Virus record (IMG/VR): IMGVR_UViG_3300047408_000234
Location: 1 to 27,520 of that record
Strand: one strand, 5' to 3'
Length of the DNA stretch: 27,520 nt
Origin: a virus
Below are positions 160-23,947 of the stretch, in pieces; within the stretch, counting starts at the first letter, position 1; each line of letters begins with the position of its first letter. Below the pieces are notes generated by a model, which saw nothing but the letters and a program-made list of their open reading frames with translations, was not told where the DNA came from and did not search any database. The translations under genes and the position numbers were made by a program.

Positions 160-1698
160 GTGGTTGACGACCCGACGACGCTCGCGGGCCTCGTGCCTGA
201 TCCGCACAACCGCCGCAAGCACCCGGCCCGCAACGTCGACATGATCGCGGCGAGCCTGCGCACGGTTGGGGCGGCGCGCTCGATTGTGATCGACGAGCAC
301 GGCGAGATCCTCGCGGGCAACGGGGTGGTCGAGGGCGCCGCCGCGGCCGGGATCTCGAAGTTGCAGATCGTCGACGTCGAGGGCGACACCGTCGTCGCCG
401 TGCGCCGCCGCGGATTGACGGCCGACCAAAAACGGACGCTGGCGATCTTCGACAACCGCACGAGCGAACTCGCCGAGTGGAACCCCGAGCAACTCGCGGC
501 CGACCTCGACGCGGGCGTCGACCTCGCGCCGTTTTTTTTCGAAGACGAACTGCGCGCGCTGTTGCCGAACGTGCGACAGGGGCACACCGACCCCGACGCG
601 ATCCCCGATCCGGTGGCGACGGCGATCACGCGCGGCGACGTGTTCGCCCTCGGCGCGCATCGGTTGTGGTGCGGCGACACCACCGACCCCGAGGCGGTCG
701 CGCAGCTGACCCGCGGCGAGCGCGCCACGCTGATCCACGCGGACCCGCCGTACGGGTTGGGCAAAGAGGCCGAGGGGATCGCGAACGACAATCTGCACGG
801 CGTGAACCTCGACGCGTTTCAGATGAAATGGTGGGTCGCGTGGTGCGCGCAGTTGGCCGACAACGGCAGCGCGTACGTGTGGGGCACCGCGCCCGACTTG
901 TGGCGCCTCTGGTGGCGCGGGGGCCTCGGCGACGAGCCGGGCCTGATGGTGCGCAACGAGATCACGTGGGACAAGGGCGCGGCGTTCGGCATGGCGTCGG
1001 ACCTGCACCACTCGTATCCGGTCGGCTCGGAGCGGTGTTTGTTCATCATGCGCGGCCAACAATTTCTCGGCAATCAAAACGTCGCCGATTATTGGGACGG
1101 GTACGAGCCGTTGCGCCTCTGGCTCGAACAGCAACGCGATCAGGCCGGGTGGAAAAACGCCGACATCAACCGGATCACCGGGACGAACATGGCGGGCCAC
1201 TGGTTTACCAAATCGCAATTCCAACCGATCGCCGCCGAGCACTACGCGACGCTCGCCGCCGCGGCCGAGGGCCGCGCGTTTACGATCTCGCACGGCGACC
1301 TGTTCGATCACGTGTTCGGATCCGTGAAGGGCGACGGCAACGCGCACCGCCGCGAACTGTCGGCGCGCCTGCGCGAGTCGCGCACGTACTTCGACAACGC
1401 GCACGACACGATGACCGACGTGTGGAAGTTTCCGCGGGTGCACGGCGCCGATCGCTATGCGCACGCGACGCCGAAACCGGTGGCGATGGTGCTGCGCGCG
1501 TTGCGTTCGTCGAGCGCGCCGGGCGATCTGGTGGCCGTGCCGTTCGGGGGCACCGGCCCCGAACTGATCGCGGCTGAGCAACTCGGCGATCGCCGCGTCG
1601 TTGTCGCCGAGGTCGAGCCGCAATACTGCCAAACGATGATCGATCGGTGGGAAGCGTTCACGAAACAGAAGGCGACGAAGGTGGGCGAGCGTGGGTGA
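160..1698 (+). CDS. ParB-like domain / DNA adenine-type methyltransferase fusion
   Basis: A 512-residue DNA modification methylase, probably modifying phage DNA against host restriction. Residues ~7-110 match the ParB/sulfiredoxin-like N-terminal domain often fused to phage methylases (DPHNRRKH, then ILAGNG and DNRTSELAEW). The catalytic motif DPPYG is at 195-199 and the AdoMet-binding motif FGGTG at 462-466. Catalytic motif before AdoMet motif is the beta-class order, and DPPY favours N6-adenine over N4-cytosine. Residues ~300-420 between them (including GWKNADINRITGTNMAGHWF) are an inserted module that probably includes the target-recognition region, with a helix-turn-helix look. The GTG start is preceded by AGGGGG. 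It sits directly upstream of the small terminase. No cognate restriction enzyme is seen, so it is likely an orphan methylase. Specificity cannot be read from sequence. Confidence 0.9.
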   Translation: MVDDPTTLAGLVPDPHNRRKHPARNVDMIAASLRTVGAARSIVIDEHGEILAGNGVVEGAAAAGISKLQIVDVEGDTVVAVRRRGLTADQKRTLAIFDNRTSELAEWNPEQLAADLDAGVDLAPFFFEDELRALLPNVRQGHTDPDAIPDPVATAITRGDVFALGAHRLWCGDTTDPEAVAQLTRGERATLIHADPPYGLGKEAEGIANDNLHGVNLDAFQMKWWVAWCAQLADNGSAYVWGTAPDLWRLWWRGGLGDEPGLMVRNEITWDKGAAFGMASDLHHSYPVGSERCLFIMRGQQFLGNQNVADYWDGYEPLRLWLEQQRDQAGWKNADINRITGTNMAGHWFTKSQFQPIAAEHYATLAAAAEGRAFTISHGDLFDHVFGSVKGDGNAHRRELSARLRESRTYFDNAHDTMTDVWKFPRVHGADRYAHATPKPVAMVLRALRSSSAPGDLVAVPFGGTGPELIAAEQLGDRRVVVAEVEPQYCQTMIDRWEAFTKQKATKVGERG

Positions 1699-21695: not shown

Positions 21696-21968
21696 TTATG
21701 CGGGGCGCCCGGCCTTGGTGGCGACGCGTAGCAGGCGCCGCGCGCACGCCGTCGCCGGGTCGACCTGTCGGTGCTCGTGTCCGCAACGGTGCAGCGCGGT
21801 GTTGTCGAGGCGTATCGGGCGCCGGTAGATCGCGGCGCTGTAGCGGTGCTCGGTCCACGGTTGCTCGGCCGGGCCGCGCTCGACGTCCTCGGCCTCGACG
21901 AACGCGACGAGGTCGTCGGCGACCCCGGCGACGTCCGACGAATCGACCTGTTTGATGATCTCGCTCAC
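21696..21968 (-). CDS. Last gene of the integrase operon, unknown
   Basis: A 90-residue protein starting at a GTG that overlaps the excisionase stop (GTGA). This start is chosen over a longer upstream in-frame extension, which would overlap the excisionase gene. It begins MSEIIKQVDSSDVAGVADDL, is acidic in the first half, then has EHRYSAAIYRRPIRLDNTAL and HRCGHEHRQVDPATACARRL, with His and Cys residues that might bind a metal. No family recognised. Co-translation with integrase and excisionase suggests an accessory role in recombination or lysogeny. Confidence 0.7.
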   Translation of the reverse strand: MSEIIKQVDSSDVAGVADDLVAFVEAEDVERGPAEQPWTEHRYSAAIYRRPIRLDNTALHRCGHEHRQVDPATACARRLLRVATKAGRPA

Positions 21969-22237
21969 CGCGCCGCCCCCCGCCGTCGGCCGAACGACGT
22001 CGCGCGGAACGCGGCCTCGCCGCTGATGTAGCGGTGCACCAATGTGCCCGAGTACGCGGCGCGGCAAAGGATTGGCGGGTGCACGAGGAATCGATCGAAC
22101 TCGCCGCGGTTTTTCAGTTCATAAAACCGCGCGTGCTTCACGCGAAAGATCGCCATGAGGTCGAGCGGCCCGAGCAACGCCCCGGCCGCGGCGCGCGCGA
22201 GCGCCGTCGCCTCGTCGACAGGTCGAGGGGGCGTCAC
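21965..22237 (-). CDS. xis: Excisionase-like DNA-binding protein
   Basis: A 90-residue protein from a GTG that overlaps the integrase stop by GTGA. The core (LLGPLDLMAIFRVKHARFYE, then LKNRGEFDRFLVHPP, and SGTLVHRYISGE) fits the winged-helix MerR/AlpA-like excisionase pattern: a helix-turn-helix that begins with a 'select the rule' helix, a RGEF turn, then a C-terminal helix ending in a short acidic motif. Such proteins bend attachment-site DNA and favour excision. Its location directly after int supports this. The C-terminus is basic. Confidence 0.72.
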   Translation of the reverse strand: MTPPRPVDEATALARAAAGALLGPLDLMAIFRVKHARFYELKNRGEFDRFLVHPPILCRAAYSGTLVHRYISGEAAFRATSFGRRRGAAR

Positions 22238-23541
22238 GACTTGCGCCCCTTCGAGACGAGCCGCGGCTTGAACACGTCCGCGAGATATCCCGCCGTGCGG
22301 TTGCTCACCTCGCGCTGCCGGTCGCGGACGAACGGCGCATAGATGCGCGTCGTCTTCGGATCGCTGTGCCCAAGGTGTGCTTGGATGTCACCCAAGTGAC
22401 ACCCGGCCGCGATCATCGCCTTCGCGAGCGAGTGCCGCGCGGCGTAGGGGCGCACGCCGTGCGGCCACCCGGCCTCATGGATCAAATTACCGTACCGGCT
22501 CGTGTCGAATTCGCCGAACGCGTCGGCCGCGATCATCGCCTGCCATGCGGCGACGCCGTCGGCGTTCAGTTCGACGGGATGCGCGGGTTCGTTCTTCGCC
22601 GGGCGCACCATCCAGAAAGCCGGGGCGGTCAACTCGACGTCCTCGGGGCGAGCCCACCCCACCTGACAGGGGCGCTGTCCGGTGGTCGCGGCGACCGCGA
22701 ACCGCGCGAACGTGGCCGCGTCGATCGCCTTGAGGCGCTGCAACGTGCCGATCACCACCGACGGCGGCACCGTGGTCACGAGCGCCTTCGGCCGCGCCGG
22801 GATCGTGACCTCGGCGACGGGCGACACGTCGCCCGCGTTCCCGAGTTTGCGAAACAGTTCGTCGAGCACGCGGCACCGATGGCGGATCGTCAACGGCGAC
22901 ACGATCGCACGACTCGTCGCCGGGGCGCTGCGCTCGTAACTAGTGACCGTGTTCGCCGGGCGCTGATGGGCGGCGACCACCGTGCTGCTCCGTGTGTAGC
23001 CTGCGATCCGTCGCGTGCCCTTGCGCAGGTGTGCCTTCACCGTCGCGCCCTCGACCTCGTACGCCTCGACGGCGCACGCCTCGCGGGCGTACCCGGTGAC
23101 CCGCACCGTGCGGATCGTGTGCGGCGAGGGTTTTGTCTGCCACTCAGCGATCGCGCGTTCGATGATCTGTTTAGTGATCGCGAACCGCGAGAGGCCGCCG
23201 AGCCGTTTGCCGTCGATCACCAGTTCGAGCCACGCGCGCAGGTGCGATCGGTCGGCCTTGAAACACGAGCGGCCCTTGATCATCTCAAAAAACGCGAGCG
23301 CGTCGACGTCGAGCGTGCCGCGCGATTGGGTAGCGTAGCGGGCGACCGTGCCTCGGCCGCGCGCCGCGGTTTCGAGGCGCTCGCGCTCGTTGTCGCGCCA
23401 CCGTCGGACGGTCGCGAGGGTGGTGTCGGCCGGAAAGCGGCACGGGGTCGACGGTTGCCCGTTCACGGTGATCAACACCTCGAACCGGCCGTCGGGGTAC
23501 CGGTAGATGTTGGGTTCGATCTTCGTGCGCTTCGCCTTCAT
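22234..23541 (-). CDS. int: Tyrosine integrase with unusual repeat insertion
   Basis: A 435-residue tyrosine recombinase. Catalytic residues are Arg290 (TGQRPCQV), Lys316, Arg369 (PYAARHS, with Tyr366 where His is usual), His392 (LGHSD) and the nucleophile Tyr401 (TTRIYAPF). The N-terminal ~60 residues look like an arm-binding domain (RYPDGRFEVLITVNGQPSTP). The core-binding helices span ~75-145 and 213-235. Between them, residues 145-214 form an insertion of about six short units ending in [GAS][YH]xR. The insertion is flanked by an 18-bp imperfect direct repeat in the DNA. The expected target is the tRNA-derived attP ~0.8 kb downstream. The start is ATG at 23541, inside the stop of a 15-codon ORF. 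Confidence 0.93.
   Translation of the reverse strand: MKAKRTKIEPNIYRYPDGRFEVLITVNGQPSTPCRFPADTTLATVRRWRDNERERLETAARGRGTVARYATQSRGTLDVDALAFFEMIKGRSCFKADRSHLRAWLELVIDGKRLGGLSRFAITKQIIERAIAEWQTKPSPHTIRTVRVTGYAREACAVEAYEVEGATVKAHLRKGTRRIAGYTRSSTVVAAHQRPANTVTSYERSAPATSRAIVSPLTIRHRCRVLDELFRKLGNAGDVSPVAEVTIPARPKALVTTVPPSVVIGTLQRLKAIDAATFARFAVAATTGQRPCQVGWARPEDVELTAPAFWMVRPAKNEPAHPVELNADGVAAWQAMIAADAFGEFDTSRYGNLIHEAGWPHGVRPYAARHSLAKAMIAAGCHLGDIQAHLGHSDPKTTRIYAPFVRDRQREVSNRTAGYLADVFKPRLVSKGRKS
22882..22899. repeat. Imperfect direct repeat flanking the integrase insertion (copy 2)
   Basis: Encodes SPLTIR (residues 215-220). It matches the 18 bp at 23110-23127, which encodes SPHTIR, at 15 of 18 positions. 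The copies are 228 bp apart, in frame. The three differences fall in a single codon. Confidence 0.6.
23110..23127. repeat. Imperfect direct repeat flanking the integrase insertion (copy 1)
   Basis: Encodes SPHTIR (residues 139-144), just before the repeat-rich insertion. See the copy at 22882-22899. Confidence 0.6.
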
Positions 23542-23585
23542 ATGTGCGCCTCGCCGATCTTGTCGGGCGTGAAGACGATCGTCAT
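23538..23585 (-). CDS. 15-residue linker ORF coupling the RHH gene to int
   Basis: An ORF encoding MTIVFTPDKIGEAHI. Its ATG lies in the stop of the ribbon-helix-helix gene (ATGA) and its stop lies in the int start (ATGA). It is too short for a domain. Double overlap with two real genes strongly suggests it is translated and acts to couple int translation to the upstream gene. The alternative is chance, since int has its own possible GCGAGG site inside it. Confidence 0.5.
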   Translation of the reverse strand: MTIVFTPDKIGEAHI

Positions 23586-23905
23586 CGCGTCGCCGCCTTC
23601 GTCGCCTCGGCGTCGAGCACGTCGGCGATCCGCAGTTTGATCCACGACTGCCGCGCGATCCCGATGCGCGCGGCCTCGGCGTCGATCCGTTTCAACAGGT
23701 CGCGCGGAAAATCGACGTTCACTTTGAACGTATCGCGGCCGGGCCGCGTCGCGTTTTTCCAATCGATGTGCGCCGAGACGTCTTCGCCCGCTTCGAATTT
23801 GCGATCGAACTCTTTAGCGGTGATGGGAATAGGAGTCGCGTTCGCGCGGGCGCGCGCGGCGGCACGAGATGATGCGGATCGTTTCTTCGCGGTACGTGTA
23901 GACAC
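23582..23905 (-). CDS. BrnA/CopG-like ribbon-helix-helix antitoxin-type protein
   Basis: A 107-residue DNA-binding protein. After a basic Ala/Arg-rich N-terminus (residues ~5-25), the body reads ITAKEFDRKFEAGEDVSAHI, DWKNATRP, then FKVNVDFPRDLLKRIDAEAA and RIGIARQSWIKLRIADVL. The last section is a ribbon-helix-helix with the pattern of CopG/BrnA-family antitoxins. I place the start at GTG 23905 because GGAAAGG sits nine bases upstream. An in-frame ATG at 23923 lacks a ribosome site. No BrnT-type toxin is adjacent, so it is probably an orphan and may regulate the operon through the repeats just upstream. Confidence 0.78.
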   Translation of the reverse strand: MSTRTAKKRSASSRAAARARANATPIPITAKEFDRKFEAGEDVSAHIDWKNATRPGRDTFKVNVDFPRDLLKRIDAEAARIGIARQSWIKLRIADVLDAEATKAATR

Positions 23906-23921
23906 AAGCCCAAACCTTTCC

Positions 23922-23947
23922 ATGCTGTAAGCATACCATAACCATAC
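23922..23947. promoter_or_regulatory. Operator-like AT-rich repeat patch upstream of the RHH gene
   Basis: In the GC-rich window this patch stands out. It contains a perfect tandem repeat ACCATA-ACCATA (23935-23946) and an inverted repeat ATGC-N5-GCAT (23922-23934). On the leftward strand TATGGT and TATGCT resemble -10 elements, but no convincing -35 is present. Ribbon-helix-helix repressors bind such short repeats, so this may be the operator and promoter of the RHH-int-xis segment. Confidence 0.5.

Follow-up and report, generated by a model that had tools for sequence, protein, structure and literature searches.

The window analysed here is the whole of a virus record of 27,520 bases, with a GC content of about 68%. 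Its genome is siphophage-like, and genes for a terminase, a portal, a protease, a major head protein and a tape-measure-like protein were identified. A single ORF of 512 amino acids at 160-1695 (+) is ParB-like at its N-terminus and a DNA methyltransferase at its C-terminus. The gene of interest encodes a tyrosine recombinase with an insert of six short repeat units in its core-binding region; the features, in the order in which the protein is read, are as follows.

22234..23541, minus strand: tyrosine recombinase (phage integrase), 435 amino acids, identified by PF00589, phrog_1 and AlphaFold fold matches
23134..23172, minus strand: preceding core-binding helix (alpha-C-like), residues 124-136, from DSSP on the AlphaFold model
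22900..23109, minus strand: insert of six V/I-x-x-[YH]-x-R units, residues 145-214; absent in L063 and L067, two units in L009, L015 and others
23083..23100, minus strand: unit 1, VTGYAR, which resembles units 4 and 6 (sequence)
23053..23070, minus strand: unit 2, VEAYEV, the least conserved of the units (sequence and comparison of arrays)
23023..23040, minus strand: unit 3, VKAHLR, H class (sequence and comparison of arrays)
22990..23007, minus strand: unit 4, IAGYTR, Y class (sequence and comparison of arrays)
22960..22977, minus strand: unit 5, VAAHQR, H class (sequence and comparison of arrays)
22930..22947, minus strand: unit 6, VTSYER, Y class, followed by a conserved SAPATS (sequence and comparison of arrays)
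22843..22896, minus strand: last core-binding helix (alpha-D-like), residues 216-233, adjoining the insert, from DSSP on the AlphaFold model

Two small ORFs flank the integrase gene. The first, of 90 amino acids at 21965-22237 (-), overlaps the end of the gene and could by its position encode an excisionase; family searches with it matched no family. The second, of 113 amino acids at 23582-23923 (-), lies directly upstream and has weak matches to CopG-type antitoxins and a phage repressor family.

The assignment of the integrase rests on several lines of evidence. PF00589 scored 31.4 bits, above its curated gathering score of 27.1, and the phrog_1 integrase family matched the ORF at 2.9e-14. 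Structural matches to the AlphaFold model were lambda Int, Tn1549 Int, XerH and Cre, and the core-binding and catalytic fold is present, with Z scores of 14-17 against lambda Int, Tn1549 Int and an archaeal Xer that cover both domains. The catalytic set R290, K316, R369, H392 and Y401 is invariant in a 15-row alignment of relatives, and in all 15 the histidine of the HxxR motif is a tyrosine (Y366, in RPYxxRH), so that the pentad RKHRH reads RKYRH. Residues 6-61 are predicted to form N-terminal strands and a helix, inside the whole-chain match to lambda Int, and this N-terminus was matched by no family model. The integrase thus has core-binding and catalytic domains and a predicted arm-binding domain.

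To this otherwise ordinary tyrosine recombinase the insert adds about 70-75 residues, as six units of about ten residues with the pattern V/I-x-[AGS]-[YH]-x-R. All six units named in the initial annotation were found, and their spacing is not due to chance, as six [VI].[AGS][YH] motifs spaced 9-12 residues apart never arose when its residue order was shuffled 100,000 times. When four divergent arrays were compared, position 1 was V or I, and position 4 was Y, F or H, in 24/24 units, and position 6 was arginine in just 17 of the 24. Units 1, 4 and 6 form a Y class and units 3 and 5 an H class, with unit 2 alone. The net charge of the loop in the six-unit forms is +7 to +12, and no repeat is evident at the DNA level among the six units of the window gene. 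Searches of Pfam, NCBIfam, the PDB, phages and plasmids, which detect short repeats poorly, gave no match to back the suggested likeness to V-x-GYxR / PHxR repeats of surface proteins. Consensus-repeat searches of phages and plasmids did not find the array either; weak plasmid matches, to Phaeobacter and to a D/H/K-rich Priestia protein that lacks the motif, look like chance.

An SPxTIR motif does occur on both sides of the insert, as SPHTIR from residue 139 and SPLTIR from residue 215, 228 bp apart and in frame. The two copies match at 15/18 bases, which had been taken as a sign of duplication. This is chance level: an equally good in-frame pair of 18-mers was present in 94 of 200 codon shuffles, and the integrase gene itself contains a better pair, matching at 17/18. 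Moreover, the two sites diverge independently in relatives, reading SKHAIR and GTLTIR in P0002; they are separate conserved motifs there, and the idea of a flanking duplication is not supported.

The history of the insert is best seen in its relatives, about 20 distinct integrases recovered from scans of viral contigs queried with conserved sub-regions. The loop between the two helices has 8-17 residues in insert-free forms, 25-27 in intermediate forms, 42-49 in two-unit forms and 83-85 in six-unit forms. Six units are found in four integrases (the window, L002, L007 and L012) and two units in L009, L015, L016, L019, L020, L022, L023, L056 and L061; L017, which ends at a contig edge, shows at least two. 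Among insert-free relatives, L063 and L067 have loops of 8 residues and L004, L005 and L043 loops of 13-17, a normal short loop being, for example, W-QIDGVSDK-TILHRCRVL. The L067 region reads ...AAWQIDGVSDKTILHRCRVLRELYQTL, which is how this integrase group looks without an array. The same loop in L064, L065, L066 and L003 holds 25-27 R/K-rich residues without the V-x-x-Y-x-R motif, which suggests that this stretch ahead of the final core-binding helix is a general growth site. Relatives with no insert (L063 and L067), two units and six therefore bear out the proposal that a module with internal repeats is inserted in the core-binding region; relatives with short loops exist, and the segment is not a normal part of the domain throughout the clade. 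Close relatives were not found by other routes: a viral-contig scan queried with the full integrase as a single protein gave zero matches, the one protein that came from a genome-contig scan was Xer-like and unrelated, and neither the integrase profile nor the array profile found a close relative in 398 Pseudomonadota genomes each. The single array-profile match in those genomes, L049, lay in overlapping frames with no motif context and was judged to be chance.

In a tree of the relatives computed with the loop left out, the insert-free rows are the earliest to split off, the 13 rows that have two or more units cluster together (support 89/87), and all six-unit forms fall inside one 8-row clade (100/100) that also contains two-unit forms. 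The tree thus indicates that zero units came before two, and that six units arose inside the two-unit clade. An AU test rejected the six-unit rows as a single clade (p 0.02). Six units may have been gained twice, or gained once and then lost in some lineages; the unit-by-unit resemblance of the L012 array, 46% identical to that of the window, to the others favours the latter. In two-unit forms the first unit has its closest counterpart in unit 1 and the second in unit 6, which argues that the extra units are internal, and the alternation of H and Y classes suggests a two-strand hairpin as the unit of duplication. Growth of the array probably occurred through repeat duplication.

There is little sign that the array drifts freely. 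In most pairs its codon positions 1 and 2 vary less than position 3, and codon-model omega values, which are rough because synonymous sites are saturated, were 0.035 for the array and 0.026 for the remainder of the gene in six-unit forms, and 0.059 and 0.053, respectively, in two-unit forms. These values point to codon-level constraint like that on the rest of the protein.

The window integrase was modelled with AlphaFold from the 15-row alignment, giving a pLDDT of 78 overall and means for ten-residue blocks of the array mostly of 44-69. DSSP assigned strands in the array at 145-148, 151-153, 158-163, 166-173, 176-179, 197-199 and 202-205. The model draws the six-unit array, with modest confidence, as a β-meander, which could be partly disordered; the model of the two-unit relative L015 has hairpin-like strands between helices 127-139 and 178-196. 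The insert had been thought to split the final core-binding helix, but the predicted helices at 124-136 and 216-233 are intact and the insert lies between them. Structures of core-binding domains alone, 2kd1 and 3lys, align over residues 72-251 through just 96-99 residues, so the array is additional to a complete core-binding fold, and it is not essential to that fold, since relatives manage with loops of 8 residues.

We suggest that the array is a β extension of the core-binding domain, built from repeats and carrying net positive charge, which contacts DNA next to the recognition helix, a reading that we rank first and to which we give about an even chance. Six V/I-x-[AGS]-[YH]-x-R strands joined by short turns would occupy the loop that links core-binding helices three and four, making up to three β-hairpins that grew from a two-unit hairpin through the addition of internal hairpins. 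V/I and the small residues would lie on one side of each strand and Y/H and R on the other and, because the latter share a side, one basic aromatic face of the sheet is expected. The module may touch the DNA backbone adjacent to the core site and help to hold or bend the DNA, with a possible effect on site binding. Contact with the backbone is the most likely because the module adjoins the N-terminus of a helix that lies in the major groove in related recombinases. We infer that the helix after the array is the last core-binding helix, the counterpart of αD in Tn1549 Int: N150 and R153 fall near the start of the αD-like helix when counted back from the catalytic arginine, an approximate mapping, and from roughly this helix onward Tn1549 Int is also matched by the profile of the insert-free relatives. 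The array is thus probably close to DNA.

The closest analogue is found in Tn1549/Tn916 Int, where a β-hairpin is added to an arm-binding tyrosine recombinase. In Tn1549 Int the inserted hairpin makes contact with the DNA backbone, and recombination depends on it: once it is deleted, the protein still binds, but cleavage and strand exchange suffer (PMC5871717). Tn1549 Int matches the core-binding and catalytic fold of the six-unit model at Z 14.5 and that of a two-unit relative at Z 16.6, and away from the array both models agree well with lambda Int too. However, its hairpin belongs to the catalytic domain, between β1 and β4, whereas the module described here separates helices C and D of the core-binding domain (124-136 and 216-233), not at the Tn916-like position, and is built from two or six repeats. 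Lambda Int has the arm-binding, core-binding and catalytic layout that is predicted for the window integrase, and the model aligns with it over residues 6-398 (1z1g, Z 15.3); unlike the window integrase, it has only a short loop there, as judged from a weak profile alignment. Clade-specific additions to the common tyrosine recombinase core are already known, including tandem core-binding domains in RitA and insertions in the catalytic domain of Arch2 (PMC8138268), and the repeat-built array is a variant among them. The subgroup additions described in passages of Smyshlyaev et al. 2021 included no repeat-built insertion in the core-binding loop (PMC8138268), and a search of mainly open-access literature found no recombinase described with such an array.

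Our second-ranked reading, possible but clearly less probable than DNA contact, is that the array is a protein-protein interface, linking integrase subunits to one another within the synaptic complex or serving as a docking site for a directionality or host factor. Core-binding domains contact neighbouring subunits in recombinase tetramers, a conserved β surface with aromatic and basic residues would suit a partner, and an interface would produce the same signals as DNA contact; the small ORF overlapping the integrase stop could encode such a partner. However, no partner was found, that ORF having matched no family, and the net positive charge and the place beside the DNA-reading helix favour DNA. 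The array probably widens the grip of the integrase on one or the other, DNA or a partner. More tentatively still, it may be a modular, length-variable β-repeat array that reads DNA or tunes synapsis, in which phages gain and lose strand pairs and so alter grip, bend or site choice.

Neutral expansion of a tolerated loop by replication slippage, with no function, is rather unlikely and ranks below both DNA contact and an interface. Loop length does differ widely among relatives, and two-unit and six-unit states may have interchanged more than once, as the rejection of a single six-unit clade allows. Yet four divergent arrays retain unit order, motif and near-equal length, the conservation of codon positions and the low array omega speak against drift, and slippage finds no evident DNA-level repeat among the units. 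We consider it very unlikely that the segment matters as DNA, for example as attP, arm sites or a regulatory element: attP lies within int in some phages, but conservation here is at the protein level, with third codon positions the least conserved in most pairs, and an Rfam search of the window gave no match. An intein or intron is also considered unlikely for a conserved, in-frame insert of 70 amino acids. Least probable of all is that a small mobile sequence inserted recently and duplicated an 18-bp target site at SPxTIR, which is refuted for a recent event by the chance-level match of the flanks; moreover, divergent relatives share the module, and their flanks do not match.

Tyrosine recombinases determine where phages and other mobile DNA integrate. 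The natural relatives with zero, two or six units beside the recognition helix are a ready series in which to study how a β surface affects DNA binding, bending and site choice, and one that could be used for integrase engineering, and repeat duplication would be one way for recombinases to acquire new domains. Four of the two-unit relatives, L019, L020, L022 and L023, carry a separate insertion early in the catalytic domain, VSRPRVRAPHDPEAYAxREAxRRRDxQQ, of about 26 amino acids.
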